Positions 2,070 to 20,256 of a stretch of DNA of 22,112 bases are shown here, in pieces (positions within the stretch are counted from its first letter, which is position 1; each line of letters opens with the position of its first letter). Made by a program: the position numbers and the translations under genes. The notes beneath the pieces were generated by a model. That model did no database searches. It had not been told where the DNA came from and worked only from the letters and a program-made list of their open reading frames with translations. This DNA is from a virus, in the IMG/VR virus record IMGVR_UViG_3300037089_000805, positions 1 through 22,112 of that record; one strand, given 5' to 3'.

Positions 2070-2085
2070 TATATTATATTTCTAA

Positions 2086-2094
2086 TTATTTATT
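2086..2094 (+). promoter_or_regulatory. WTATTTATW promoter-like motif (TTATTTATT)
   Basis: The motif ends 14 nt before the ATG at 2109, the same spacing as the copies before 9246 and 20306. It is the weakest match to the window consensus ATATTTATA, with a T at each end. Confidence 0.35.
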
Positions 2095-2108
2095 AAAAAC
2101 AAGTTACT

Positions 2109-2984
2109 ATGGCAGTTGGAATTTATGGCTCAAAAGCTTTGGCAAGTGTTGACTTTAATGATGTTGACATTCTTTTTACATTTTCTCCTACGAGAGAAGT
2201 ACTTGGTGGAATCCAAATGGCTCCGTTGTTCAATAGTATTACTAATAATGAATTTAGGAAATTGTTAGGTGCAGATGGAGTGTATAAACTTAGACTTCCT
2301 GCAGCTATCTTTAATCAACTTGGATTTTACAGTATCTTGATTAAGCCAAAGTCATTTGAAACACAAATTGTAGATTGTTCTTTTGTTGTTACAAATAATG
2401 ATAATGAAGTTCAAATTTCAAAAAAAGGAATTGTTATTCCTAAATTACAATTTCAAAGCGCCGGGAGTTTAATAGGTTATCAGATAGATTATTTTGATAA
2501 TAATGGGATAAAAATTAAGAATTTTTATCGAATTGTTACAAGTAGTGATTTAGTTAGTATTAGCCCTATTAATTCAAGTACTAATCCAAGCTCTAAAACT
2601 TATATTCTTGACCCTAATGGAAATAATTTATTTCTTACTTTAACTCCAGATGAAGTAAGTCTTATATCAAATGTTCAAGCTCCTGATTTAGGAAAAGCTG
2701 GTCAAAATATAATTATATCAAATACATTTTTTGACCCTACTATGATTGAGGTTGAAATGGTTGACCAAAATATAAAAACTTTGAGTTATGCGCTTTATGG
2801 AAATTCTACCAGAGACCTTGAATTTGGCATATTTTCTATTTTTGATGAGCAAAATAACTTGTATAGACAGTATAATTTGTTAACAAACAAAAAACAGTTT
2901 AGTACTGGACAGATAGATGTTAAACAAGAAAGAACTGACATTAATCTTAGTCAAACGTTTAATGGTGTTTCTCAAGGTCTATAA
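2109..2984 (+). CDS. Putative virion structural protein, 291 aa
   Basis: I do not recognise the family. The protein is beta-rich with many Asn, Ser, Thr and Ile residues, has no Cys-rich motif and has no signal peptide or membrane segment. This composition matches the flanking tail proteins. The ATG at 2109 is chosen because it is preceded by an A-rich leader and a WTATTTATW motif; there is no Shine-Dalgarno sequence. The N-terminus (MAVGIYGSKALASVDFNDV) reads like a compact beta domain, and the C-terminus ends in a polar NLSQTFNGVSQGL tail. It lies between the Calx-beta protein and the leftward baseplate operon. Its TAA directly abuts the stop codon of the leftward gene, leaving no intergenic base. 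Virion function is inferred from position and composition only. Confidence 0.7.
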   Translation: MAVGIYGSKALASVDFNDVDILFTFSPTREVLGGIQMAPLFNSITNNEFRKLLGADGVYKLRLPAAIFNQLGFYSILIKPKSFETQIVDCSFVVTNNDNEVQISKKGIVIPKLQFQSAGSLIGYQIDYFDNNGIKIKNFYRIVTSSDLVSISPINSSTNPSSKTYILDPNGNNLFLTLTPDEVSLISNVQAPDLGKAGQNIIISNTFFDPTMIEVEMVDQNIKTLSYALYGNSTRDLEFGIFSIFDEQNNLYRQYNLLTNKKQFSTGQIDVKQERTDINLSQTFNGVSQGL

Positions 2985-4613
2985 TCAAACAAAGAAATTA
3001 TCATTTGCCATTTTTCCAAATGTATCGTATGTATCACCCCATAGTAGCTTAAGTTTTAAGTTTAGAGATACATTATTTGACACATCAATTATTCTTGAAT
3101 CATTTTGATATCCTCTATATGAAGTTATCAATGTGTATAATCCAGGGTTTAGTCCAGAAAACGAGAAGAACCCTGTTAAATCAGTAGTTTGAGTAATAAA
3201 GCTTGTATCAGGGAATACAAATTGCATTGTAGCACCCGTTACAATACTTCCGGATACAAATCCACTAAATAGATAAGTTTCCCCAGGACTTTCTAATTCT
3301 ATTGAAGGAGGAGTTGTAAAACCTGCAATAGTTGGTGAATATGGACTATCAGATTCTGCCATTACATACACGCTAATTGGATTGCTTGGCGTGGTGGCCA
3401 TGAAATTATCAGAAAAAGTAACAACACTCTGTTTAACTCCAAATAAGTTTACAATTGATTTTACATTTCCAACCCTATATAAAAAATTGCTATTTGATTT
3501 AATAGAAGTTTCATATCTTCTTATTGTCTTAGATGTGGTAAATTCACTCACAGGATTTACTTGTTTATCTACAGATTGTTCTTTAAATTTATCATCTTTA
3601 ATTATAGGATAAGAAAAAAAAGTTCCTGTAAATCCTGTATCTCCAGTATTATAATTAACTTGTAACAAATACTCATCTCCATCCTCAACACTAGAAAAAT
3701 AAAATGTTGGAGTAAAAGTTGACAAAGGACCAGTAACAACAGGGTATTCTATTTTAGGTTTATTAGGTACAAAAAAATATGTAAAGAAGTTTCCTACGAC
3801 ATTTAATCCTTGAAATTGACCTTGATTTATTATGCTTCTTGAATTGTCAGTTACAACAGTATCTGTGGCATTATAATCTGATTGAATTATAACATATGGA
3901 TTAGACCCGCTTGTAGAGAAAAAATCATAATCTAACAATGTGGGGTCCTTTTGTATTAAAAATTTAATTTTTGTATCAATAAAATATTGTGATTTATCTT
4001 GGAAAAGTTGAGCTTTAAAAGTCCCTATGTTTTTTACATACTCATCCGGATAAAAATCATATATATGCTCTACAATACCAGATGTTACAGCAGTAAGAGA
4101 AAATATAGGGTTAGACAAAGAACTTTGTATATCATTTAATGAGGTAAACCCAAGGTCCTGAAAAGTGTTTTTATTATTAATTATACTAGTTACTTTTCTT
4201 GTAGTAGAAGTACTTATTACGCCATCTACATTTGTAGTGGATGTTTCTGTGGTTGTATTATTATCTGTTTCCATTCCAGCAACACTTGGAACAAAAGATG
4301 GTTGAAAATTTGAAAATGTTTTATAATCTAATCTATATACATCATGAATAAGGAAAGTTGTGCTGCTAAAACTCTGTGTGTTTGCTGTAAAATAAAACCT
4401 AAAAAATGGTCTAGTTAAATTAGTAAAAATAGAATGCACACTCTGTCCATAATAATCTTGAGTTCCACCAAATGTGATAAACATTGGCAATTTAAACTCA
4501 ATAAAATTTTGAGCACCCTGGTTTATTTTAACAAATGCATTGTTATAAAAAACTTGAGAAACAGAATTTTTATCTCCGGTAGTCTGGAATAATATGTTTT
4601 TTTCTATGTTCAT
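2985..4613 (-). CDS. Tail/baseplate-associated protein with C-terminal carboxypeptidase-regulatory-like domain, 542 aa
   Basis: This is the second gene of a two-gene leftward operon. Its ATG (4613-4611) is 4 nt after the stop of the gpI-like gene. Most of the protein is beta-rich with aromatic residues, and it has a Thr/Ser-rich low-complexity stretch near residues 115-140 (TTTETSTTNVDG). Residues of about 440-525 resemble a CarboxypepD_reg-like (transthyretin/Ig-type) beta-sandwich: a GFVSG strand, a loop, then TDLTGFFSFSGLNPGLYTL and a GYQ motif, matching the family pattern of TD-GxFxFxGLxPGxYxL with a following GY. Such domains decorate many phage structural proteins and can bind surfaces or act as spacers. 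There is no signal peptide. The role is inferred as a baseplate or fibre-connected component because it is co-transcribed with the gpI-like protein. Confidence 0.7.
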   Translation of the reverse strand: MNIEKNILFQTTGDKNSVSQVFYNNAFVKINQGAQNFIEFKLPMFITFGGTQDYYGQSVHSIFTNLTRPFFRFYFTANTQSFSSTTFLIHDVYRLDYKTFSNFQPSFVPSVAGMETDNNTTTETSTTNVDGVISTSTTRKVTSIINNKNTFQDLGFTSLNDIQSSLSNPIFSLTAVTSGIVEHIYDFYPDEYVKNIGTFKAQLFQDKSQYFIDTKIKFLIQKDPTLLDYDFFSTSGSNPYVIIQSDYNATDTVVTDNSRSIINQGQFQGLNVVGNFFTYFFVPNKPKIEYPVVTGPLSTFTPTFYFSSVEDGDEYLLQVNYNTGDTGFTGTFFSYPIIKDDKFKEQSVDKQVNPVSEFTTSKTIRRYETSIKSNSNFLYRVGNVKSIVNLFGVKQSVVTFSDNFMATTPSNPISVYVMAESDSPYSPTIAGFTTPPSIELESPGETYLFSGFVSGSIVTGATMQFVFPDTSFITQTTDLTGFFSFSGLNPGLYTLITSYRGYQNDSRIIDVSNNVSLNLKLKLLWGDTYDTFGKMANDNFFV

Positions 4614-4617
4614 TTAA

Positions 4618-7035
4618 TTAAGGTCCTTTTCTTATTGATAATGTCGTTGGTAAATTCATATTTCCTGCAGTTGAAAAAGTATTTATAGTGCTAGAAATAT
4701 TATTAGGATTAACAATACCTACTAAAGTTACAGGAGTTAATCCAGCATTAATATTTCCTGCTATACTCATATTTATCACTAAAGGAGTGATAACTGGACT
4801 AATAAAATTATTTACTATACTACTTATTTGAATAGGTGTTGTATTCATCGGAATATTTGGTGGGAGTCCTACTTGAAATTCTGACCCCGCGTTTATTCCT
4901 TCTCTATAAACAAATCTTTGTCTGTTAAATACAGTATTCCTATAAATAGTTCCCTGACAATCTAATATAGTTGTTGCAGGAATAAGTTGTAAAACATAAT
5001 CTTGAACTTGAGTTTCTAATAAATTTAAAAATGCTTCAAGTTTCTTAAACGTAAGTTGATGTGATTGGGGCTGACTTAGTAAATAATAATTTAAATATAT
5101 TCTTCTAAGTTCTGGATAATGCCACGATGTGTGAATCTGATTATTTGTTTTTCTATTTTTTGGTCCAACATTTGACATATATATAAAGTCTGTATATTGA
5201 CTTAATGTCATACCAGATATCATATTTGGAGCAACAAATTCGCAATTAGGAATTGTATAATAAAATGGAGTTGTATTAGCACTGAAAGGCGGAGCTAGAC
5301 TTCCCCAAACCCAACATGTTCCACTTAATTGATACCATCCTTTTACATCGCATTCAATAGCTGATGCAGGGTCTAATGCAGCACATAATTCTTTTGAATT
5401 TATAACATTTTGAGTACCAAATACATTTGTATCTCCTGTATAAACTTTTATATTATCAACCCTACTTTGTGGGTCGAATTCTGGCCTCCATTGATTTATA
5501 TAATTTTGACCATCTCCTCTTCCATCTCCGCCTTCTTGAAATGCAAATTGACTTCCATTATAATTTATATATCCATTATTATTTATTTTCACAAGAGACG
5601 CATTTGTAGCGCTGCTTAATGAGCCTAAATAAACTTGATTTATGTCATAAACAATTTCGTCAAGAGTTATTAAACAATCTGGAGCCCCAAGAAGTTTAAA
5701 CAAAAATATTAATGCATCTCTGGTTCCTTTTTTCTTAAACAACCAATTAATATTTACTAAAATTCTCTTCCATATTTCTATGTTAAATTGTGCAAGTGAA
5801 TTTCCTTGTCCATCTTCATCTCCAGCCAAATATTTAAATAAGTCAATTTCGCTAAAAGAGCTGGATAATTTCCAGCCTAACAGATTACTAAATTTTGCAA
5901 GAAATTTATTAGGCACACTCTCCTCGCCACTATAATTTATACTATGAGCAAATGCTAATCCATCAATGTATCTTTTTATTTCATCAAATTGATGTGCATA
6001 ACTTTGCACGATAGTTTTAAACACTTGACTATCTGAGTCTAATTCAATATAGTTTTCTCCAATTACTGTTTTAACAAGAATATTTGTTTTTGTTTCATCA
6101 ATATTGGCTGCAGCTTGAAGGATACTTGTTTGAAAAGCATCAAAGGCTCCGCCCATACTGTCAGGATTAAACCCGTCAATAGTTGTAGGCCATGTAAATC
6201 CAGATAAATTTTGAGTGTTATCATTTAGATTTATATCTGGAACAAGAAAATTTCCAGAAAGTAAGACTTGTCTTTCCAAGCTAGATAAATTCATTTTATA
6301 TGAACCTAATCTTTTACTTGATGGTCTAATGTAAAGTCCGTATGTACTTGTAACTTGAGACCCTGTAAATAAAAACCCATTGATTGTAAACTCTAAATAT
6401 GAACCTCCTGAAAAAAAGTAGTTTAATATATCGTGTACTTCAGTTGTAGCAGATGCATTTGTACTTGTTGCACTTAACTGTATTGAAAATAACTCTGGAT
6501 TATATACTAAACTTGGAGCTCCACCTGTAATTCCTGAGTTAATTATTACTCCACCTTGATTTGTTAGCCCTGATAAAGGAACTCTAAAAGTAGAAGTTTT
6601 ACTTCCAGTTGTATTATTAAAAGATTGAGAATAATTAAATATTGTAGTTCCAGTTCCATTGTCATATGCTAATATTGCATATGGAAAATTTGAGATAATG
6701 TTATTAATAGAATTTGCTACATCAGTATAAAAAGAACCAAAATATGTATAACTTTTTGGTTCTGTAGACTTTAATCTGAGTTCATTACTGTTTACAAAAA
6801 CACTAGTTTGAGCTGTAAAGTTTTTACTACCAAGACTATTTAATGTTGAAAATCCTCCAAAATGTAAACTTAGCGTGGTAGATGTTAATGAATCAGATGA
6901 AGTGTTTCTTTCTATATTAAAATCGCCAAATGTAAATATAGCTTCAGAGTTGGAAGGAGCGAGCCTCTTTTCTTGACCTGGGCTAAATTTGACTGATAAT
7001 GTATTTGCGGTATTTGGACTTGCAACTGAACCCAT
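4618..7035 (-). CDS. Baseplate/tail protein, P2 gpI-like (phage tail protein domain), 805 aa
   Basis: The first gene of a leftward operon. Residues 1-270 are beta-rich and virion-like. Residues of about 290-470 are mostly helical: a segment around IDETKTNILVKTVIGENY, then a long helix (FKTIVQSYAHQFDEIKRYID), then IWKRILVNINWLFKKKGTRDAL at about residues 420-441, and FLFKLLGAP. The pattern (helix, KKKGTxxAL, hydrophobic helix ending LLG) is typical of the P2 gpI / TIGR02242 tail-protein family, which forms part of the baseplate wedge. In contractile phages this protein connects the hub to the fibres. The C-terminal 110 residues are again beta-rich with short NMSIAGNI / TAGNMNL repeats. The ATG at 7035 lies 13 nt after a WTATTTATW motif on the same strand. 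It is longer than P2 gpI (under 200 aa), so the gpI-like region would be one module of a larger protein. Confidence 0.7.
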   Translation of the reverse strand: MGSVASPNTANTLSVKFSPGQEKRLAPSNSEAIFTFGDFNIERNTSSDSLTSTTLSLHFGGFSTLNSLGSKNFTAQTSVFVNSNELRLKSTEPKSYTYFGSFYTDVANSINNIISNFPYAILAYDNGTGTTIFNYSQSFNNTTGSKTSTFRVPLSGLTNQGGVIINSGITGGAPSLVYNPELFSIQLSATSTNASATTEVHDILNYFFSGGSYLEFTINGFLFTGSQVTSTYGLYIRPSSKRLGSYKMNLSSLERQVLLSGNFLVPDINLNDNTQNLSGFTWPTTIDGFNPDSMGGAFDAFQTSILQAAANIDETKTNILVKTVIGENYIELDSDSQVFKTIVQSYAHQFDEIKRYIDGLAFAHSINYSGEESVPNKFLAKFSNLLGWKLSSSFSEIDLFKYLAGDEDGQGNSLAQFNIEIWKRILVNINWLFKKKGTRDALIFLFKLLGAPDCLITLDEIVYDINQVYLGSLSSATNASLVKINNNGYINYNGSQFAFQEGGDGRGDGQNYINQWRPEFDPQSRVDNIKVYTGDTNVFGTQNVINSKELCAALDPASAIECDVKGWYQLSGTCWVWGSLAPPFSANTTPFYYTIPNCEFVAPNMISGMTLSQYTDFIYMSNVGPKNRKTNNQIHTSWHYPELRRIYLNYYLLSQPQSHQLTFKKLEAFLNLLETQVQDYVLQLIPATTILDCQGTIYRNTVFNRQRFVYREGINAGSEFQVGLPPNIPMNTTPIQISSIVNNFISPVITPLVINMSIAGNINAGLTPVTLVGIVNPNNISSTINTFSTAGNMNLPTTLSIRKGP

Positions 7036-7048
7036 TAATATAGTTTTT

Positions 7049-7057
7049 TATAAATAT
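7049..7057 (-). promoter_or_regulatory. WTATTTATW promoter-like motif (ATATTTATA on the minus strand)
   Basis: An exact ATATTTATA read leftward, 13 nt before the ATG of the gpI-like gene at 7035. It is half of a divergent control region (7036-7161) that also holds the rightward copy at 7137-7145. Confidence 0.5.
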
Positions 7058-7136
7058 TATCAAAAAAGAATTCGAAACTAAACTAATAAGAGCAAAACTA
7101 TTTACTTTACGGGCCATTTTAAATAAATTTTAAATC

Positions 7137-7145
7137 ATATTTATA
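7137..7145 (+). promoter_or_regulatory. WTATTTATW promoter-like motif (ATATTTATA)
   Basis: An exact copy, 16 nt before the ATG at 7162. It faces away from the minus-strand copy at 7049-7057, so the 126-nt gap between the two operons carries one motif per direction. A direct repeat of ATTTTAAAT lies just upstream (7116-7136). Confidence 0.5.
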
Positions 7146-7161
7146 TGAAAAATACATCCAT

Positions 7162-9207
7162 ATGAGCTTTTTGTTGAACGAACCGACTACTTTCATTAAT
7201 ATAAAACTTACCGATGATGGCAGGAGACTTCTTTCTTTAGGTAAATTAACATTTGATAAAGCTGTTATTTCTGATAGAGAAATCAATTACGGAATCGACC
7301 GTACCGGAAGCTATCAAATATGCATGAATAGAATTTTATCGCCAAAAGATGCTCATCCGCCTTTTACTACTAATTTTGATGGTTCTAGCGCTACCACGTT
7401 GTCTTCGAGGTTTGTAGGCTCTTCTAAATCAATTGTTACTGCTACAACAACTTCTACGGGATTTTTTACTGGAAGTACTAATGCATTTGCTATAGACCAG
7501 ACTGAAACATTAGGAACATCATATATTGCATATTCTGCAAATACTCCTAATGGAAGTTCAACAGTAATAATATTTTCAGCAGGAACTTATTTCCCAATTG
7601 GAGGAGAACTAGTTTATATTCCATGGCAACCTATTCAAAATAGTGGTAAAACATATACTTCTGATTCATTTGTAGCGTCAGGCAATCCAACTGTAGATTT
7701 ATGGTATAGAGTATTGTCTTCAAATACGGCATCAGCTACAATAACTCTTGATAGAGCTGTTCCAAACTTTGGAATTACCGACCCAACCTCATCAGAAAAA
7801 ATTAATATTTACTTTTATCCATTTAATGGAATAGAATCTTATTATGGTTCTGCAGCTACTATAAATACAAAAGTTTGGAATATGAATATTGTTAGAACAA
7901 GTTCAATTCCAGGAACTAATAGCTTAATTAGTGGCTATACCACATATGGTTCAATTCAATTTAATGGAACAAAACAGTATTTAGGATTTTCCGCTGAAAC
8001 TAGAGAAATAGGCATTGTACACTATACAAATGAATTCACTGGAAATACATATGCGGAACAACTTATAGAAAAAAGCGTAATTATAGATATTCCTAATTTA
8101 ATGTGGCATAATTTTCCTGCAACAGCAGGCTCTGCATTATTGTATGGAGTTAGATTAACAGATTCTTATGGAAATACTTTCTTTGATTCTGCTTCTCAAA
8201 CTACATATAGAGAACTTAGGGATTCTATTTCTAGTGCCGGAGTAGTTGTTGGAAGAGTATATCATAAATTAAAGATAATAGTAATAACAGACCCTGAATT
8301 ACTAACCGCTTTAACATACAAATCAAATAGAAATTATTCTCTGCCAAAAGCTAATTTAGGACTGACTTCAGTTCCTAAATATCCTCTTAATACAAGCAAT
8401 GCAACAGGATTGTGCCAAAGTGGCATGGTTTATTATGTTACATACATTACAAGTAGTGTGCCTGTTAATACATCAGGAGTTAGCTTTGGATATCCGCAAG
8501 CAATGCACTGTGGATATATAAATCAGATTAATGGCCAGGTGGATTCAAATGGTAATCCTCAATTTTTAACTGTTAATTTTCCATTTAATGCATTTCCATA
8601 TCTTAGAAGAAGTAGTGATATGAATGCTAATTCATCTTTCTCCGGAACCGGATGGAATGCTAATTCTGTACAAATATTGATTAATGAAGTCGCTTTATCT
8701 GCAGGGACAAGTTTAGATAGTATCCCTTCTGATAATTGGAGATTAATATCTAGTGGAGGTACAGGAAATGGAGTTTATACTGGAGATACTACAGATTTAA
8801 CTATTGACCCAATTAAACTTCTCGCAAATCAGTTTGTTGTTTCCAGACAGGATTTTGTAAGTGGAAGTACATATGCTCTTAGTGGAGAATTTTCAGCATT
8901 TACTCAAAATAACAACGTTTTCATTAGTGGGCTTACATTTGGAAATGAATCATTCTTCTTTGGGAATATACAAGCCGATATTTTAGCGACATCTTTTAAA
9001 TCAATAATAACAGTTCTTGCTAAAAACAACGATTTCAACTCATCTCTTAATCAATCATTTAACGGTACGTTGGACCCAAACACATTCATTACAGAAATAG
9101 GAATATTGAACTTAAATAATACACTTGTTGCAGTAGGGAAGCCAACATATCCAATTACCAAGAATTCATCAAGATATTTAGCTTTTCAATTAGAGATAGA
9201 TTTTTAA
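7162..9207 (+). CDS. Tail/baseplate-type virion protein with conserved end modules, 681 aa
   Basis: The N-terminal 45 residues (FLNEPTTFINIKLTDDGRRLL, then FDKAVISDREINYG) match a module I recall from many uncultured phage tail proteins: a 'KLTDxGRRxLSxGxL' stretch followed by SDxExxY. A related copy starts the next gene (9246). The C-terminal 45 residues (FITEIGILNLNNTLVAVGKP, then ITK and a closing beta strand) match the C-terminus of the gene at 10238. The centre is a long beta-rich, Gly/Ser/Thr/Asn-rich region without recognised catalytic motifs. There is no signal peptide or membrane segment. It is the first gene of a four-gene rightward run ending at the terminator at 11363-11400. A role as a baseplate or fibre-attachment protein is inferred from the shared modules and position. 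The family function is not established to my knowledge. Confidence 0.7.
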   Translation: MSFLLNEPTTFINIKLTDDGRRLLSLGKLTFDKAVISDREINYGIDRTGSYQICMNRILSPKDAHPPFTTNFDGSSATTLSSRFVGSSKSIVTATTTSTGFFTGSTNAFAIDQTETLGTSYIAYSANTPNGSSTVIIFSAGTYFPIGGELVYIPWQPIQNSGKTYTSDSFVASGNPTVDLWYRVLSSNTASATITLDRAVPNFGITDPTSSEKINIYFYPFNGIESYYGSAATINTKVWNMNIVRTSSIPGTNSLISGYTTYGSIQFNGTKQYLGFSAETREIGIVHYTNEFTGNTYAEQLIEKSVIIDIPNLMWHNFPATAGSALLYGVRLTDSYGNTFFDSASQTTYRELRDSISSAGVVVGRVYHKLKIIVITDPELLTALTYKSNRNYSLPKANLGLTSVPKYPLNTSNATGLCQSGMVYYVTYITSSVPVNTSGVSFGYPQAMHCGYINQINGQVDSNGNPQFLTVNFPFNAFPYLRRSSDMNANSSFSGTGWNANSVQILINEVALSAGTSLDSIPSDNWRLISSGGTGNGVYTGDTTDLTIDPIKLLANQFVVSRQDFVSGSTYALSGEFSAFTQNNNVFISGLTFGNESFFFGNIQADILATSFKSIITVLAKNNDFNSSLNQSFNGTLDPNTFITEIGILNLNNTLVAVGKPTYPITKNSSRYLAFQLEIDF

Positions 9208-9222
9208 AAAAATAAAAATATA

Positions 9223-9231
9223 ATATTTATA
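9223..9231 (+). promoter_or_regulatory. WTATTTATW promoter-like motif (ATATTTATA)
   Basis: An exact copy, 14 nt before the ATG at 9246, in the 38-nt gap after the previous stop. It continues into AATA, giving the palindrome TATTTATAAATA, so a T4-like TATAAATA is also present on the same strand. Confidence 0.5.
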
Positions 9232-9245
9232 AATAAAGAAATACC

Positions 9246-9677
9246 ATGGGATTTATACCATCATCATCAACTCTATATGCTACGGCTTATTTAACCGAGA
9301 AAGGCAGAGAGTATTTATTTAATAAAAATAATGTTAGATTTGATAACACTGGTAATGATTTATTTCAAATTACTTCTTTTACTTTAAGTGATTCAGATGT
9401 TAATTATCAAACAAATGTATTACTGGAATCAGGAGAAATACCTGATATTTCTGGTAAATCAGAAGGGTGTTTAAAAACCACAACTAATTATGCTCAAACA
9501 AATTTAGTTATTTTTCAAGGAACAATTAGTGCGCTTGCTACATCATCTTCAAGTGTAGCTTATAACACGAATCAAACAAATAATACAACAGTTGTAAGTT
9601 CAAATAGTTTACCCACTTCTAATGTTATACCAGTTGGCCCAATTGGTATAGGTCCAGCACCAGTAACAAAAGGATAA
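9246..9677 (+). CDS. Small virion-type protein sharing the N-terminal tail module, 143 aa
   Basis: The first 60 residues parallel the start of the 681-aa protein: AYLTEKGREYLF against IKLTDDGRRLLS, then FQITSFTLSDSDVNYQ against FDKAVISDREINYG. The rest is a low-complexity Ser/Thr/Asn region ending in a Pro/Gly/Val-rich tail (IPVGPIGIGPAPVTKG). This looks like the anchoring module of a tail protein without the large central and C-terminal parts. The start is the first ATG after a WTATTTATW motif. The structural role is inferred from the shared module and from lying between tail-type genes. No enzymatic motif is visible. Confidence 0.65.
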   Translation: MGFIPSSSTLYATAYLTEKGREYLFNKNNVRFDNTGNDLFQITSFTLSDSDVNYQTNVLLESGEIPDISGKSEGCLKTTTNYAQTNLVIFQGTISALATSSSSVAYNTNQTNNTTVVSSNSLPTSNVIPVGPIGIGPAPVTKG

Positions 9678-11403: not shown

Positions 11404-11955
11404 ATGACATTTTCTCTGGATATATCTACTACATGTGTTGGCTTTGCTCTCTTTAATGAAGATGGCAAGCTGCAGGAATTGAATTATGTAAAATTTAAAG
11501 ATAAATTAGGTGTTTTTGAAAAACTCGAAGAGTTTAAAAAAGCAATTTCACATTTAGAAAATGTAAAAATAAAAAGAATAGCAATAGAAGAACCTTTGCA
11601 AAGAATGCAAGGTAAATTTTCTTCAGCTCACACGATAGCAATTCTTAATTTTTTTAATGGAATGGTGAGTGCTTATGTTTATAGTCTTTTTAAAGTTATC
11701 CCAATTCATTATAATGTCAATAGTATAAGAAGTACTGTTTTTAAAGGCATTAAAGAAGACATTACGGAAAAAGGAGAAATAAAACACAAAGTTTGGAATA
11801 AAGTGAAAGAGTTGGAACCTCAAATTAACTGGAAATATGGAATTCGTTCAGCAAAACTTCTTCCTGAAAACTATGACATGTCAGATGCTTATTCGGTAGG
11901 AATTTATGATTTTATTATCCTCAACAAACAACTTGAAAAGTTAGAAAAAAAATAA
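11404..11955 (+). CDS. RuvC-like Holliday-junction resolvase, 183 aa
   Basis: The fold and catalytic residues of the RuvC / RNase H-like superfamily are visible. The first strand, FSLDISTTCVGFALF, holds Asp6. IKRIAIEEPLQR holds Glu62/Glu63 at the end of the second core strand. YDMSDAYSVGIY holds Asp158 and Asp161, three apart as in RuvC. The length of 183 aa is close to E. coli RuvC (173 aa). It would cut four-way junctions formed during phage recombination and before packaging, like T4 gp49 in role though not in fold. The ATG lies 3 nt after the upstream terminator. A poor TATTTTTTG box overlaps the leader, but no clear promoter was found. It precedes the fused Mre11-Rad50 gene and so belongs to the recombination block. 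Phage RuvC-like enzymes can also act as other structure-specific nucleases, so the exact substrate is uncertain. Confidence 0.8.
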   Translation: MTFSLDISTTCVGFALFNEDGKLQELNYVKFKDKLGVFEKLEEFKKAISHLENVKIKRIAIEEPLQRMQGKFSSAHTIAILNFFNGMVSAYVYSLFKVIPIHYNVNSIRSTVFKGIKEDITEKGEIKHKVWNKVKELEPQINWKYGIRSAKLLPENYDMSDAYSVGIYDFIILNKQLEKLEKK

Positions 11956-11960
11956 TTTGT

Positions 11961-11969
11961 ATATTTATA
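11961..11969 (+). promoter_or_regulatory. WTATTTATW promoter-like motif (ATATTTATA) with no ordinary gene at the usual distance
   Basis: An exact copy 5 nt after the resolvase stop. At the usual 13-17 nt spacing it reaches the base of the hairpin at 11979-12024 rather than a gene start. Confidence 0.45.
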
Positions 11970-11975
11970 GTTAAT

Positions 11976-12036
11976 AATGCCCTCCAAGCCTAGTTTACGA
12001 AAGTAAATGCTCAAATAGGAGGGCTCCTTGTTTTAA
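11976..12036 (+). ncRNA. Candidate small hairpin RNA or structured leader
   Basis: The outer stem GCCCTCC (11979-11985) pairs with GGAGGGC (12018-12024). Inside lies TTTAC-GAAA-GTAAA (11994-12007), a 5-bp stem with a GNRA-type GAAA loop, plus an AGC/GCT pairing below it. The 3' side continues TCCTTGTTTTAAT, a weak T-rich tail. A phage-type promoter motif stands at 11961-11969. The downstream gene has its own host-type promoter starting after this structure, so the element may be a separate transcript. It could instead be a terminator for the resolvase gene. A nine-codon ORF (11977-12006, MPSKPSLRK) also lies inside, but it is probably chance. No known RNA family was recognised. Confidence 0.35.
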
Positions 12037-12060
12037 TATCTCCATTTTACATATAATTTG

Positions 12061-12091
12061 TTGGTAATGCAGGTAGTTTTATCTATATTTG
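12061..12091 (+). promoter_or_regulatory. Bacteroidetes-type promoter of the Mre11-Rad50 fusion gene
   Basis: The -33 element is TTG at 12061-12063 (preceded by another TTTG), followed by 20 nt and a -7 element TATATTTG at 12084-12091, matching TAnnTTTG. The ATG at 12113 is 21 nt beyond the box. A TTG inside the box is in frame with the gene and would be a false start. Confidence 0.65.
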
Positions 12092-12112
12092 AAGGATATA
12101 AAACCCGGTAAT

Positions 12113-15100
12113 ATGAAAATTGCTCACTTAGCAGATATACAAATACGATTCGGTTCAAGACATGAAGAGTACAGACAGGTTTTTAAACGCACTTATAGTG
12201 ATTTAGAGAAACAAAAACCAGATAGAATATGCGTTGTTGGAGACATTAATCACCATAAAATTAATATTTCTCCTGGTTCTTTAGATATATCTTCAGAGTT
12301 TTTAATAAATTTATCCAGAATAGCTCCTACAGATGTGTTTTTAGGTAATCATGACATAAATCTCCAGCAATTAGAGCAAGGAGACTCTATTAGTCCTATT
12401 TTTAACCTTGCTAAGCTCCTACATAAAGAAGATTCTGATGCACAAATTGCATATATTGTCTCAAAAGAGAACAAAGATTCGATTGATTTTTCAAAAAATG
12501 CAATCTATTATTACCCGGATAGCGGGTTCTACAATATAGCAAAAGATTTGATTTACGGGGTTTACTCCTGCAAGGATGATATTATCCTCACCCTGGATAA
12601 AAAAGACCACAACAAGCATTATATAGGGTTCTATCATGGTACAGTTTATGGGGCCAGAGGTGACAATGGACACGAAATGAAAGGGGATAAGCTTATGAGG
12701 CTATCAACTTTTAATAATTTCGACGCTGTTTTATTAGGAGATATACATGAATATCAATCATTTAGAGATGATGAAGCAGTAGCTTATTGCGGTTCTCTTA
12801 TCCAGCAAAACTATGGGGAATCTATTGATAAAGGTTATCTCATATGGGATATAAATAAAAATGGGGCTACTCACAAAAGAAGGTATATTCTTAATGATTA
12901 TGGATTTGCCAAACTAACTGTCTCTAAAGGAGAAATTTTAGAGGAAAGAATAGAACATATCAAGTTTAGCAATAATAAGCGTAAGACAAAAGTTCACATT
13001 GTATGGGAAGACAATGAAGAGAATTATTCTATAGAAAGAGAAAATCAGATTAAAAAACTTATTAAAGACAAATATGGTTGTGAAGTTGTAAGAGTACAGT
13101 TTCAAGGAATAGTAAAAAATAACTCTCTCAAATTAGAGGATGCTGAAGCAGACACTAACAATATAAAAAATTATCTGTTAGAATTTATAAAAAACAATAA
13201 CTTCGATTGTGATGATGTCATGCTAAAAGAAGTCTTGACATTTTCTGAAGAAGTTGATAAGGCATTGGAAATAACAGAAGGTTCTACTGAGAGAAGTGAA
13301 TGGGAACTTGAAACCATGGAAGTTAGTAATATATTGTCTTTCCCTGAACAACCAGTATTTTTTGATTTTAATAGTCTAGCTAGAAAATTAGTTGGAATAT
13401 TTGGAAGTAACTATAGTGGAAAGTCTAATACGATAAGAGCATTGGCCTGGGGACTTTTCCAAAGTATACTTGGTGGAGCTGACTCTAAAAATATAATAAA
13501 TCTTTATACATCGTCTAACAAGGGATATGTAAAAATCCATTTAATAATAAATGGCGTAAGGTATTATATACGTAGAGGTGTCACCACAAAAGTAAATAAA
13601 GCCGGAGTTAAGGAGAACAGCTATTCCATAGAGTATAAGATGCTTAAAATAAAAGAAGACGGAACTGAGGAATGGGTTAATGAAATCTCTGATAATAAAA
13701 CTGCGGAGAAAACAGAGGTGAAGAAGATGGTTATTGAAGCAATAGGAACAGCGGATGACATTGCTAAAGTTTCTATAATGAATCAAGACAGTAAGGAAGA
13801 TTACATGAATTTAAAACAGCAGCCTAAAAATGATTTAGTAAATAAGTATTTAAATCTACAACCATATAGGGACCGACATGAATATGCAAATAAATATTTC
13901 CTAGAAGTTCAGCGTAATCAAAAAGAGCTTGGAAATTGTATGGACATGGAAGATAAAATCAAAACATACAAAGAAGAAGTTGTAATTAAATATGCTCAAT
14001 TACAATCTTTTAATGAAGAAAAAAGAAATGTAAATCTCAAAAAAGAAGATACTGATGTACAAATTCTTGAATTAACAAAAACGCTTGAAAAAGTAGAGAA
14101 GGTAGAAATTGATAATATAGACACATTAAAAAAAAGAGTTCTTGAAGAAAGGGAGCTATTGGGCAAAGAAAATAAGGAACTTTCAGATGTAAAGTCCTGG
14201 CTCGGTATTAATTTTAAAAAAGAATTACCTTTTGAAGAAGGTCAGAGTCTCAGTAAATTAGAAACTATAATTAAAAAAGAACAGGATGCTTTTGCGCAAG
14301 AGAAAAAAGAATTTTATGAAATAGACATTTGGCTAAAAAGTAATTCTAAAAAACAAGAATTATCTCAAGAAGAGGTATTAGATACAGAGACTAAAACAGA
14401 TAATTTAAAGAGAGTAAATATTACTCTTGATAATGAATTACCTATTCATCGTGGCAAAAACTGTCCTACTTGTGGAAAGGTAGAAAAACAAGCTAATCCA
14501 GACTTAGAAAGAGCATGTCTTGAGACTATTAAAAATAATAAAAATGAAATTGTTTTACTACAATCTAAGCTTACAGATAATAAATCAAATATTCAACTTA
14601 ACAATTTAATAGAAGTTAAATCTACAAAACTTAGCGGTTTAAAGAACTCTTTGACATCAAAAAAATATAAGCTAGAAGACGCTAAGGCTCAGCGAGATTT
14701 ATTTCTTAAATCTGAAGATATTATAAAGCATAATAAAGAAATAGAATCAAATTCAATAAAGCAAGACACTCTTAAATATTCTATTGAGTCCAGAACAAAA
14801 CTGATTGAAAAATATATTGATAATGCTAAGAAAATAAATGAAAACAAATCTAAGATACTTCATAATAAATCTGTAGATGATAAAATTGAAGAATTGCAGG
14901 AATTGTCCAAGGCTTATAAAATAAGTGTCTATAATTTAGATAAGGATATTAATGTTTTAAATGGAGATATACGAGTGCTGGATAATAACATTAAAAATCT
15001 TGACGAGAAGATTAGTAGGGTGAAAAACATTGAAAATTTATACAAAAAATACTCTATTTACCTGCAAGCTGTTCATAGAGATGGAATTCCAGCTCAGATT

Positions 15101-15574
15101 ATCAGAAAAAAACTTCCTATTATTAACAATAAAATTAATTCTATTTTAGCGGATTGTGTTAATTTCAAGTTAGATATAAAAGTTCTTGTTAATGGAGATA
15201 TTGTGGAATATTTTTATTTTAGTCCTGATAAATCTGATTCTTTGTCAATAGAAAGTGCTTCCGGGGCTATGAAATTTGTAATAGGATTGGCCATTCAAGA
15301 GGCAATGCATTATATAAGCACTTTCTCAAAACCTTCTTTCAAATTTATAGATGAAGGATTTGGAAAACTTGATGATAGACTAGTGTCTGAAATCCCAAAT
15401 GTCTTAAACTATTTAAGAAATAAGTATAAAAACGTATTCTTTATTACTCATAGAATTGATATAAAAGAATATGCAGATTACATGATAGAGGTCTCAAAAA
15501 ATAGCGCAGGGGTTTCTAAAGAAATACTAGCTAATAATCCGGATGCAGGAACATCAGTATTTAACTTTTCATAA
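12113..15574 (+). CDS. Fused Mre11/SbcD-type nuclease and Rad50/SbcC-type zinc-hook ATPase, 1153 aa
   Basis: Two enzymes normally encoded separately (T4 gp47 and gp46, SbcD and SbcC) are in one frame. N-terminal calcineurin-like nuclease: MKIAHLADIQ (Asp8), VVGDINHH (Asp44), GNHD (Asn79-His80-Asp81), HGTVYG (His175) and GDIH (Asp210, His212). A linker of about 330-395 follows. The ATPase half starts near Trp397 and has Walker A GSNYSGKS (431-438). A coiled coil of about 600-1010 is interrupted by a CPTCG zinc hook (Cys784, Cys787). The signature-like ESASGAMK (1047-1054), Walker B FKFIDEGFGKLD (Asp1080, Glu1081) and His1113 follow. The complex resects and trims double-strand ends. Position 10 is Gln where the family usually has His. 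The ATG at 12113 is chosen over an upstream TTG because MKIAHLAD is the canonical beginning and the TTG lies in the promoter box. Confidence 0.9.
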   Translation: MKIAHLADIQIRFGSRHEEYRQVFKRTYSDLEKQKPDRICVVGDINHHKINISPGSLDISSEFLINLSRIAPTDVFLGNHDINLQQLEQGDSISPIFNLAKLLHKEDSDAQIAYIVSKENKDSIDFSKNAIYYYPDSGFYNIAKDLIYGVYSCKDDIILTLDKKDHNKHYIGFYHGTVYGARGDNGHEMKGDKLMRLSTFNNFDAVLLGDIHEYQSFRDDEAVAYCGSLIQQNYGESIDKGYLIWDINKNGATHKRRYILNDYGFAKLTVSKGEILEERIEHIKFSNNKRKTKVHIVWEDNEENYSIERENQIKKLIKDKYGCEVVRVQFQGIVKNNSLKLEDAEADTNNIKNYLLEFIKNNNFDCDDVMLKEVLTFSEEVDKALEITEGSTERSEWELETMEVSNILSFPEQPVFFDFNSLARKLVGIFGSNYSGKSNTIRALAWGLFQSILGGADSKNIINLYTSSNKGYVKIHLIINGVRYYIRRGVTTKVNKAGVKENSYSIEYKMLKIKEDGTEEWVNEISDNKTAEKTEVKKMVIEAIGTADDIAKVSIMNQDSKEDYMNLKQQPKNDLVNKYLNLQPYRDRHEYANKYFLEVQRNQKELGNCMDMEDKIKTYKEEVVIKYAQLQSFNEEKRNVNLKKEDTDVQILELTKTLEKVEKVEIDNIDTLKKRVLEERELLGKENKELSDVKSWLGINFKKELPFEEGQSLSKLETIIKKEQDAFAQEKKEFYEIDIWLKSNSKKQELSQEEVLDTETKTDNLKRVNITLDNELPIHRGKNCPTCGKVEKQANPDLERACLETIKNNKNEIVLLQSKLTDNKSNIQLNNLIEVKSTKLSGLKNSLTSKKYKLEDAKAQRDLFLKSEDIIKHNKEIESNSIKQDTLKYSIESRTKLIEKYIDNAKKINENKSKILHNKSVDDKIEELQELSKAYKISVYNLDKDINVLNGDIRVLDNNIKNLDEKISRVKNIENLYKKYSIYLQAVHRDGIPAQIIRKKLPIINNKINSILADCVNFKLDIKVLVNGDIVEYFYFSPDKSDSLSIESASGAMKFVIGLAIQEAMHYISTFSKPSFKFIDEGFGKLDDRLVSEIPNVLNYLRNKYKNVFFITHRIDIKEYADYMIEVSKNSAGVSKEILANNPDAGTSVFNFS

Positions 15575-16615: not shown

Positions 16616-16647
16616 TTTGTAATTGAATTTACAAACTACTATATTTG
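16616..16647 (+). promoter_or_regulatory. Bacteroidetes-type promoter of the PD-(D/E)XK nuclease gene
   Basis: TTTG at 16616-16619, 20 nt, then TATATTTG at 16640-16647, a near-perfect fit to TTTG-N17/23-TAnnTTTG. The ATG at 16653 is only 5 nt after the -7 box, so the transcript should be leaderless or nearly so. Confidence 0.7.
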
Positions 16648-16652
16648 AACAC

Positions 16653-17585
16653 ATGACTACTACCTTAAATAAAAACGAAATATACAATGCACTGAATGCC
16701 AATCATTCAGATAAAATTCACATTAGTTTTAGTGAATTTTCATTGTTCAATGAATGTGGACATAAACATCTAATTTTCAAGTATTTAAAACTAGATGAAC
16801 AACCCCCTTCTATACATTTATTCTTTGGGAATGCAATACATGCAGCAATAGAACTTTCTTTAAATGAGGGGTCTGGAATTGAAAAAAGAATAGAGTTTTT
16901 CAAGAATACCTTTAAAAAAGAAATGATGGATAATATGAAAGATGACCCATCATTCAATGAAGTTGACAATTTTGTTGCGCAAGGAGAAAATATTTTGAAA
17001 ACATTATCGGTAGAAAAAATATTTCAAAAATATAGAATAGTCTCTGTTGAAGAAGCTCTATATGAAAACTTACATGGTAAATTTTTCTTTAAAGGTTTTA
17101 TTGACCTTGTAGTCCAGAATAAAGAAACTGGAAAATATGTTATCATTGACTGGAAAACTTCCGGAGAAGAGTGGAAGTTAGATAAAAAGTTAAAGGATGA
17201 AATATTTTTATGTCAAATGAGGTTTTATAAATACTTCTGGGCCAGGAAAAATAAAATAAACCTTTCTGATATAACCTGTAAATATGTTGTTTTAAACAGA
17301 TTAAATAAAAAGAATAATGCAAAAAGCGGTTTTGGCAAATTGCAACCAGTAGATATTAATTCAACAAACGAAGAGATAAAATTATCTCTTAAAAAATTAG
17401 CAAACACAATAAAAAGAATTCATGTAGAACATGACTTCTTTAAAATTAAACATACCGGAAGTGAAAAAATGGGATGTATGTTTTGTAAATTTAAAGGAGG
17501 AAGTCATACTTTATGTAATACAAGTATGAATCAATATGTTGTCCTTTTAAAAGAAAATAATAACAAAATAAAAGAAAAAATATAA
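16653..17585 (+). CDS. Cas4/AddB-like PD-(D/E)XK nuclease with Fe-S-type cysteines, 310 aa
   Basis: The protein has the RecB-family nuclease motifs in order. ISFSEFSLFNEC comes near the start, and FFGNAIHAAIE holds the motif I His63. GFIDLVV (Asp151) and VIIDWKTS (Asp166, Lys168) form the catalytic centre. QMRFYKYFW is the helical motif after it. Four cysteines sit as in Cas4 and AddB: Cys35 near the N-terminus and Cys275, Cys278 and Cys288 near the C-terminus (CMFC then C). In those families they hold a 4Fe-4S cluster that pins the two ends together. There are no CRISPR genes nearby, so a recombination or end-processing role is inferred. The ATG at 16653 is used because the in-frame TTG at 16623 lies inside the promoter. 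The next gene starts 2 nt after the stop. Confidence 0.85.
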   Translation: MTTTLNKNEIYNALNANHSDKIHISFSEFSLFNECGHKHLIFKYLKLDEQPPSIHLFFGNAIHAAIELSLNEGSGIEKRIEFFKNTFKKEMMDNMKDDPSFNEVDNFVAQGENILKTLSVEKIFQKYRIVSVEEALYENLHGKFFFKGFIDLVVQNKETGKYVIIDWKTSGEEWKLDKKLKDEIFLCQMRFYKYFWARKNKINLSDITCKYVVLNRLNKKNNAKSGFGKLQPVDINSTNEEIKLSLKKLANTIKRIHVEHDFFKIKHTGSEKMGCMFCKFKGGSHTLCNTSMNQYVVLLKENNNKIKEKI

Positions 17586-18266: not shown

Positions 18267-18279
18267 CTCTTTTTTTTTG
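18249..18279 (+). terminator. Weak A/U-rich hairpin, possible terminator
   Basis: A-rich arm 18250-18261 pairs with CTC plus T-run 18267-18278 around an AATAA loop that holds the stop codon. Twelve pairs, two of them G-U. The T-run lies within the stem, so termination would be partial. Its end overlaps the TTTG of the helicase promoter. Confidence 0.3.
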
Positions 18280-18306
18280 TTTTATGCTATGATACTAATA
18301 TATTTA
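18276..18306 (+). promoter_or_regulatory. Bacteroidetes-type promoter of the SNF2 helicase gene
   Basis: TTTG at 18276-18279, 19 nt, then TATATTTA at 18299-18306 (one mismatch to TAnnTTTG). The ATG at 18313 is 6 nt beyond, again implying a very short or absent leader. Confidence 0.55.
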
Positions 18307-18312
18307 GATATC

Positions 18313-20256
18313 ATGGCAAAAGAAAAAGAACCCACAATAGTAAAAATAAGAAAACTCAAAACCAACTTTGAGTTTAGATATGATTATTTGCCTATTCTCT
18401 CCGAATTCATAAAGAGGTTCCCAAAAGAACATAGAAATATTAGGAAAGATAATGTTCTCACTCCAGATGGTGAATATAAAGATGAGTGGGTCAGAATAAT
18501 TCGGGAAGTAGAAATCGGTAAGCTTATTTCTTTTCTTATTGATAATAGCATCAAATTTTTATTTGAAAATTGCACTAAGGATGAGATATCTAGGCTTCAA
18601 CAGGAATATGTCGATAGACTAAATAGAATACACGAAGCCCTCAAAATGAAGGCAGATGTTTTAGATATATCTGGAGAAGACTATTCATTCTTAAAAAAAC
18701 CTCCATATGAATATCAAAAGAAAGCCATTAAGTTTTTTGAAATTAATAATGGCGTAGCTATTCTTGGAGATGAGCCTGGTGTTGGAAAGACACTTCCTGC
18801 TTTCGCATATGCTGCAAAACATAAACTTAGAACACTGATTATTTCCCCATCCCCATTAAAACTTATGTGGAAAGACCGAATTGCTGAATTTACCAATGAA
18901 AAAGCATTCGTATATGGTTACATCCCTTCAAAGAAAAGTTTACGAAAAGGAATTGCTCACACTAAAAAAGAAGCGCTTTTTCATGGTATTAATTATGAAT
19001 CTTTAGAAGGTTATATCCAACTTGAATACAATCATAAATGTAGAGGTAATACAGTCGATAAAGAAGGTAAATCTAAAAAATGTATTTGGGATAAATATGA
19101 TTTAATAAAAAAGCATAAAAAATGTCCTGAGTGTGAAAATACAGGAACTATTACATCAAGAATTAATAAATTAGTTTATTCTCAGGATAAAATGGGCAAT
19201 TCAATTAATCCTGAAGACTATGATTTAATAATTATTGATGAGTGCCATAGAATGAAGAATGAAAAAACATCTTGGACTAAAATCATTAAAAAATCATTTA
19301 GGGATGTAATAAAGAAAAAAATACTTATTTCTGGGACTGCTATAAAAAGTAGACCCATGGAATTATTTTCATTGCTTAATTTCATATTTCCTGAGGAATG
19401 GAATAGTTCTCATGATTTCGGAGTTAGATATTGTGCTGGATTTGAATCAAATTTTGGATGGGTATATACCGGAGCCTCCAATCTTGAAGAACTTTTTGAG
19501 CGTATATCTCCTTTCTTTCTGAGAAGATTAAAAAAAGATGTATTGAAGGAGCTTCCTCCAAAAACATATTCTAACATTGTCATTCAAATGACTGATGCAG
19601 AAGAAAAGGCATACAATAAATTAGAAAAATCAGTAGCGGAAGAAATAGCAAAGGAGGGAGAAATTACGGAAAAGAAAAAAGAGACCGTAATGGAAAAAAT
19701 GCATAAACTTAATTTATTCACAGGAAAAATTAAACTTGATAGATGTTTTGAAACTATTCAAGATGTTATTGATTCTGGAGAAAAAGTAGTTATATTCTCT
19801 GACCGATTAGAAATTACCCAGGGAGTTTATGAAGCTTTTAAAGAAATAGCTGTAATTCATACCGGACTCCAAACTAGTGAAGAACAAAATGAAGCTGAAT
19901 TTTCTTTTCAAAACAATAAAAACATAAAAGTTTTTGCTGGAAGTAATATGTCGGCTGGAGTTGGAATTACTCTAACGGCTGCAAGTAAACTTTTGAAAAT
20001 AGGATTTTCATGGACTCCTGCAGATGAAACACAAATAGAAGATAGAATTCATAGAGCTTCAGCTACCGCAGAAAAAATATTAATTATCACCTTTATTGTT
20101 CAAGGTACAATAGATGAAGATAGATATGAGCTTTTAATGGAGAAGTCACAAGTTGTCTCCAGAGTGCTTGATAATAAGAACTTTAAGAGAGAAGTTGAAT
20201 TATCTGACACCAGCATTATAAAGGAACTAGCTAGAAGAATTGCAGAAAAAAATTAA
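18313..20256 (+). CDS. SNF2-family helicase/translocase with zinc-finger-like insertion, 647 aa
   Basis: Helicase superfamily 2, SNF2 type. Walker A is GDEPGVGKT (152-160), motif II is DECH (309-312), followed by RMKN, and LISGTAIKS is motif III. The SNF2 hallmark FFLRRLKKDVLKELPPK follows. The second RecA domain has VVIFSDR, AVIHTG, AGVGITLTAA and QIEDRIHR (574-581, motif VI). Between motifs Ia and II lies a cysteine cluster, Cys243, Cys257, Cys271 and Cys274 (the last pair as CPEC), probably binding zinc. The N-terminal 120 residues are charged and helical. SMARCAL1-type and phage UvsW-type enzymes remodel forks and anneal strands; that role is inferred here. The ATG at 18313 (MAKEKEP) is used because the longer TTG start at 18277 lies in the promoter. 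Confidence 0.88.
   Translation: MAKEKEPTIVKIRKLKTNFEFRYDYLPILSEFIKRFPKEHRNIRKDNVLTPDGEYKDEWVRIIREVEIGKLISFLIDNSIKFLFENCTKDEISRLQQEYVDRLNRIHEALKMKADVLDISGEDYSFLKKPPYEYQKKAIKFFEINNGVAILGDEPGVGKTLPAFAYAAKHKLRTLIISPSPLKLMWKDRIAEFTNEKAFVYGYIPSKKSLRKGIAHTKKEALFHGINYESLEGYIQLEYNHKCRGNTVDKEGKSKKCIWDKYDLIKKHKKCPECENTGTITSRINKLVYSQDKMGNSINPEDYDLIIIDECHRMKNEKTSWTKIIKKSFRDVIKKKILISGTAIKSRPMELFSLLNFIFPEEWNSSHDFGVRYCAGFESNFGWVYTGASNLEELFERISPFFLRRLKKDVLKELPPKTYSNIVIQMTDAEEKAYNKLEKSVAEEIAKEGEITEKKKETVMEKMHKLNLFTGKIKLDRCFETIQDVIDSGEKVVIFSDRLEITQGVYEAFKEIAVIHTGLQTSEEQNEAEFSFQNNKNIKVFAGSNMSAGVGITLTAASKLLKIGFSWTPADETQIEDRIHRASATAEKILIITFIVQGTIDEDRYELLMEKSQVVSRVLDNKNFKREVELSDTSIIKELARRIAEKN

Follow-up and report, generated by a model that had tools for sequence, protein, structure and literature searches.

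Can a nuclease of the Mre11 type and an ATPase of the Rad50 type be encoded by one viral gene, and if so, in what process would the joined protein work? An earlier note on the window, a metagenomic fragment of 22,112 bases from IMG/VR, had claimed an uninterrupted single frame for both enzymes, and this was borne out by translation: on the plus strand, positions 12113 to 15574 (stop codon included) form one stop-free ORF of 1153 codons plus stop. The ATG at 12113 is likely to be the start of the gene, since close homologs begin with MKIAH at the equivalent position; an in-frame TTG at 12089, 24 bases upstream, is only mechanically possible as a start. A Pfam search of the 1153-residue product identified Metallophos (PF00149) at residues 1 to 214 (E value of 1.7e-5, above the cutoff) and AAA_23 at residues 403 to 662 (E value of 3.4e-10), while PHROGs returned an SbcD-like match over residues 1 to 360 (3.6e-16) and an SbcC-like match extending to residue 1136 (1.5e-38). 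When solved structures were searched by sequence, Mre11 chains matched the N-terminal part and Rad50 chains matched the C terminus. The Rad50 head is also matched by SMC, MukB, and Lamassu/Jet ATPases, as expected from the common ABC/SMC fold. The residues cited earlier for the nuclease (D8, D44, N79-H80-D81, H175, and D210-I-H212) and for the ATPase (Walker A GSNYSGKS at 431 to 438, CPTCG at 784 to 788, ESASGAMK at 1047 to 1054, D1080-E1081, and H1113) were all found in place, and the domain order fits the known Mre11-Rad50 complex.

The boundaries of the domains were examined in an AlphaFold2 monomer model built with 48 homologous sequences (mean pLDDT of 82.5, pTM of 0.47). Because the pTM was low, the placement of the two halves relative to each other is not confidently predicted. 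The Mre11 phosphoesterase core (residues 1 to 258, positions 12113 to 12886; this and all features below are on the plus strand) carries D8, Q10, D44, H47, N79, H80, H175, D210, and H212 and is followed by the capping domain (residues 265 to 333, positions 12905 to 13111), which was delimited by the secondary structure of the model and the structural match to SbcD. With VIA-align, residues 1 to 331 matched the nuclease and cap chains of S. aureus and E. coli SbcD with Z scores of 24 to 25 (24.7 for S. aureus), which together with the PF00149 match identifies the calcineurin-like phosphoesterase fold of Mre11/SbcD nucleases with its cap. A poorly predicted loop (residues 336 to 347) separates the cap from a putative helix-loop-helix (HLH) domain, the Rad50-binding domain at the C terminus of Mre11 (residues 351 to 385, positions 13163 to 13267), with helices predicted at 351 to 361 and 368 to 385. 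The cap and HLH segment used as a sequence query against solved structures gave no match up to an E value of 10, so that the HLH is assigned from the model and from its homology to relatives. Residues 330 to 395, which the note had read as a linker, are thus mostly HLH domain according to the model, and the real linker comprises only about 10 residues (386 to 395, positions 13268 to 13297).

The Rad50 head begins at the strand formed by residues 396 to 405. Its N-terminal ATPase lobe (residues 396 to 580, positions 13298 to 13852) contains Walker A at 13403 to 13426 and is joined through a coiled coil (residues 583 to 987, positions 13859 to 15073), bearing the zinc hook CPTC (residues 784 to 787, positions 14462 to 14473), to a C-terminal ATPase lobe (residues 992 to 1153, positions 15086 to 15571) with the signature SASGAMK at 15254 to 15274, Walker B D1080-E1081, and His1113. 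The features of a bipartite ABC head (GSNYSGKS, the Q-loop residue Q558, SASGAMK, IDE, and H1113) and of a long coiled coil with a CxxC hook were all found, in agreement with the claim of a full Rad50. Residues 397 to 1153 matched E. coli SbcC with a Z score of 29.2, and the head matched Rad50/SbcC with Z scores of 27 to 29. The second glycine of LSGG is replaced in the signature, and S-G with A, M, S, or K as the next residue is a clade feature. Twelve of 121 fused proteins (L032, L039, L076, L077, L083, L128, L144, L148, L150, L167, L178, and L181) had no CxxC in the coiled coil and hence lacked a zinc hook; the ones included in the tree were all on one branch. It had also been suggested that fusion fixes a 1:1 stoichiometry. 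This is reasonable, yet since the classical complex is a 2:2 assembly in any case, what fusion would bring is assembly in cis and not a new stoichiometry.

To either side of the fusion gene lie genes of DNA metabolism. A RuvC-like Holliday junction resolvase (positions 11404 to 11955; phrog_159, E value of 9.7e-8) is encoded upstream, a place that it keeps in related contigs. Between it and the fusion gene is a hairpin, GCCCTCC...GGAGGGC (positions 11979 to 12024; fold of -18.5 kcal/mol, z of -2.98), a candidate terminator that the terminator scan did not list, its loop being too long for that scan. About 1 kb downstream of the fusion is a PD-(D/E)XK nuclease (positions 16623 to 17585; PF12705, E value of 2.7e-19), and beyond it an SNF2-type SF2 helicase (positions 18277 to 20256; PF00176, E value of 1.2e-34; phrog_62, E value of 5.6e-87), with synteny placing both in the same module. 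The order tail genes, RuvC, (primase), fusion, PD-(D/E)XK, helicase is kept in related contigs. The primase, a DnaG-like gene, separates RuvC from the fusion in most relatives but is absent from the window (positions 11956 to 12112) and from two related loci (L012 and L016). By analogy with T4, whose gp46 and gp47 act in recombination-dependent replication (PMC3175470), this conserved neighborhood supports a module for recombination and replication.

It is very probable that the fusion is the phage Mre11-Rad50 (SbcCD, T4 gp47/gp46) in the form of one chain, working in recombination-dependent replication. For this reading the frame, domain order, conserved motifs, predicted HLH, recurrence, and synteny were shown, and from them we infer the dimer geometry, activity, and role. 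Two fusion chains would dimerize through their Mre11 cores, Rad50 heads, and CPTC hook to give the usual clamp, in which the Mre11 HLH would dock on the base of the Rad50 coiled coil, either in the same chain or in the partner, with the short linker leading from it to the Rad50 head. Opening and closing driven by ATP would admit the nuclease to DNA ends, and the ends would then be resected and tethered for recombination-dependent replication, with the neighboring RuvC-like resolvase, PD-(D/E)XK nuclease, and SNF2-type helicase as possible partners.

The main job might instead lie outside phage DNA replication, in the degradation of host DNA or in counter-defense. For T4 gp46/47, the record mentions host DNA degradation beside recombination, and the nearby PD-(D/E)XK nuclease would suit such a task. 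The neighborhood favors recombination but does not by itself separate replication from host DNA degradation; the linked RuvC and helicase and the primase of the relatives nevertheless indicate recombination and replication, and we consider degradation or counter-defense an unlikely main function.

Next to be weighed is the state of the nuclease site. The statement that all Mre11 motifs are present holds for D8, D44, N79-H80-D81, H175, and H212 but not for two metal-ligand histidines, which are replaced by Gln10 and Asp210; DIQ accordingly stands at motif I in place of D-x-H, and GDIH in place of GHxH at the last motif. In an 80-row alignment comprising 64 fused rows, 8 canonical split rows, and 8 rows of a cap-split type described below, Asp210 was present in 63/64 fused, 7/8 cap-split, and 0/8 canonical rows, the sole fused exception being Sphingomonas phage PAU with GHxH. 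Gln10 is confined to 12 of the 64 fused rows, the window included, with His in most relatives. Mimivirus R555 is reported to carry the same Asp (Asp242) in its last Mre11 motif (PMC3175470). As judged from the aligned sequences, the GDxH motif is diagnostic of the single-chain phage Mre11-Rad50.

With two ligand histidines replaced, one of them clade-wide and in R555 as well, the fused protein could serve chiefly to tether or clamp DNA, with the nuclease activity of its Mre11 half lost or altered. Aspartate, however, is itself a usual metal ligand, and D8, D44, N79, H80, H175, and H212 are invariant among the fused rows. Across 48 fused homologs, the invariant positions were G43-D44, G78-N79-H80-D81, H175, D210, H212, and Q231-Q232-N233 in the Mre11 half and Walker A G436-K437-S438, S1050-G1051, and D1080-E1081 in the Rad50 half. 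The nuclease half was also the slower-evolving one in 9/9 close pairs (dN of 0.05 to 0.13, versus 0.12 to 0.26 for the Rad50 half), which suggests a working active site. A mainly tethering protein is therefore distinctly improbable, and we retain the reading of a probably active nuclease-ATPase.

The fusion was found to recur with the same junction across phage and metagenome sets, contrary to the possibility that its homologs are always split. Independent contigs carry the single ORF with this junction at 40 to 52% identity. Comparison with phage records by tblastn gave a full-length match in Microcystis phage Mel-JY01 (WWT39521), and a second tblastn query linked the 735-kb phage LR756501, Tenacibaculum phages PTm1, PTm5, and pT24, Chryseobacterium phages MA9V-1 and MA9V-2, and Sphingomonas phage PAU; the fusion is annotated as one CDS in the records of PTm1, pT24, MA9V-1, PAU, and Mel-JY01. 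An alignment scan of IMG/VR confirmed 572 relatives among 600 stretches, of which 80 were kept. All three domains were in one ORF in 82/87 loci, and two more were truncated by the contig end, a count biased to fusions by a query that is itself a fusion. A scan with Mre11 only, which is fairer but still biased by patterns derived from fused proteins, gave 47 fused and 22 split loci, with 9 undetermined. The single-ORF fusions total 133 loci, a number that includes the window itself and counts five contigs twice. Bacterial genome contigs contained 11 relatives, several of them partial, canonical splits, or on short MAG contigs, and no plasmid record covered 80% of the fusion query. In close relative pairs, the HLH and linker stretch was under purifying selection (dN of 0.11 to 0.29 versus dS of 0.8 to 1.7, where computable). 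On this sequence evidence, the single-chain Mre11-Rad50 is common in large phages. An assembly or sequencing artifact joining two genes, conceivable for a 22-kb metagenomic fragment, has a negligible chance of being correct: the same single-ORF architecture is present in about 125 other, independent contigs and in cultured phages with complete genomes, and purifying selection acts on the junction in relatives. For the fusion family, an artifact is ruled out by this recurrence.

Interruptions of the gene were observed in some relatives. In three loci (L004, positions 1513 to 5738; L017, 5959 to 9979; L023, 2973 to 8799), an element with a homing-endonuclease-like ORF interrupts the Mre11 half just after GDIH, and this insertion spot is identical in these distant phages. 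Elsewhere the break is at the Walker A lysine of Rad50 (L174, positions 5529 to 9448; L117 and L118, near 5830), with intein-like end sequences (GGK/CIKENT... and ...NGIVSHN/TT; VGK/CVHPQT..., the slash marking the break). The arrangement resembles that of a split intein, and in L174 an endonuclease-like ORF lies between the parts.

The 22 split relatives (L123 to L125, L127, L130 to L137, L139, L141, L152, L154, L156, L159, L170, L172, L174, and L180) are divided not at the classical border of Mre11 and Rad50 but inside the Mre11 cap. The first ORF of these loci encodes 268 to 285 residues, the nuclease core only, and the second has about 125 to 143 residues ahead of the Rad50 head (in cap-split loci with a complete, uninterrupted Rad50), compared with 2 to 17 in canonical pairs. 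This N-terminal extension of Rad50 is homologous to the cap tail and HLH of the fused proteins (hhalign probability of 98.3, E value of 2.3e-14, 101 columns). Other genes intervene between the two halves in the seven cap-split loci that were read in detail. In the careful tree, which was built without R555, the cap-split forms were nested within the fusions (99/99), and the fused and cap-split rows together were set apart from the canonical pairs at 100/100. In the AU test, a single clade of fused proteins was not rejected (P value of 0.51), the constrained tree being 1.1 log units better, and the order of fusion and cap split is therefore unproven. We give about even chances to the simplest history, which is also the one that the tree of these sequences would suggest: a fusion ancestral to the phage clade, re-split inside the cap in one branch, where the second gene opens with half of the Mre11 cap plus the HLH. 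If this is true, fusion and then fission have moved the subunit border, and an Mre11 domain has stayed for good on Rad50. Among the papers listed in the general literature searches, none named the cap-split arrangement.

Fusions of Mre11 and Rad50 are themselves known. The note knew of no well-described case; 13 were in fact described in 2011 by Yoshida, Claverie, and Ogata, one of them in a phage, and such fusions were argued to be abundant in aquatic viruses (PMC3175470). The window's fusion is a further member of this kind. What is new beyond it is the commonness in large phages, the GDxH marker, and the seemingly shifted subunit border in some relatives. An Mre11-Rad50 enzyme in one chain would, moreover, be a useful reagent for the question of whether it works in cis or in trans, because nuclease and ATPase mutations can be combined in the same polypeptide.

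Compared by its published description (PMC3175470), R555 shares with the window's protein the N-terminal Mre11 and C-terminal Rad50 in one chain, the retained cap and HLH, the short linker (estimated at 9 to 12 residues for such fusions, with which the window's 10 or so agree), the substitution of Asp for the first His in the last metal motif of Mre11, and the occurrence in viruses, phage included. R555 is longer (1351 versus 1153 residues), and the window's protein adds the Gln at the motif I His. The best six structural matches among viral proteins were giant-virus proteins of 969 to 1389 residues, while PTm1 and pT24 ranked 10th and 12th. The fusions of cultured phages (Tenacibaculum PTm1 ORF-075 of 1318 residues, pT24, PAU gp288, MA9V-1, and Mel-JY01 WWT39521) are single genes of the same deep clade, are 21 to 25% identical to the window's protein where aligned, and are annotated merely as metallo-phosphoesterase, DNA repair, or AAA proteins. 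Outside the window, a 1009-residue "recombination exonuclease" of Listeria phage LMTA-57 (BFVD A0A068CB47) matched over its length and is possibly an independent fusion, or else an annotation artifact in an otherwise split family. The gp47/gp46 pair of T4 and the SbcD/SbcC pairs of Herelleviridae comprise the same two enzymes, presumably with the same task, but are encoded by two genes divided at the classical border and have the GHxH motif; the T4 signature is FSEGEK, in contrast to SGMEK/SGAMK. E. coli SbcCD and the archaeal and eukaryotic Mre11-Rad50 complexes share the fold of both halves with the window's protein, whereas they consist of separate subunits and are distant from it in sequence.
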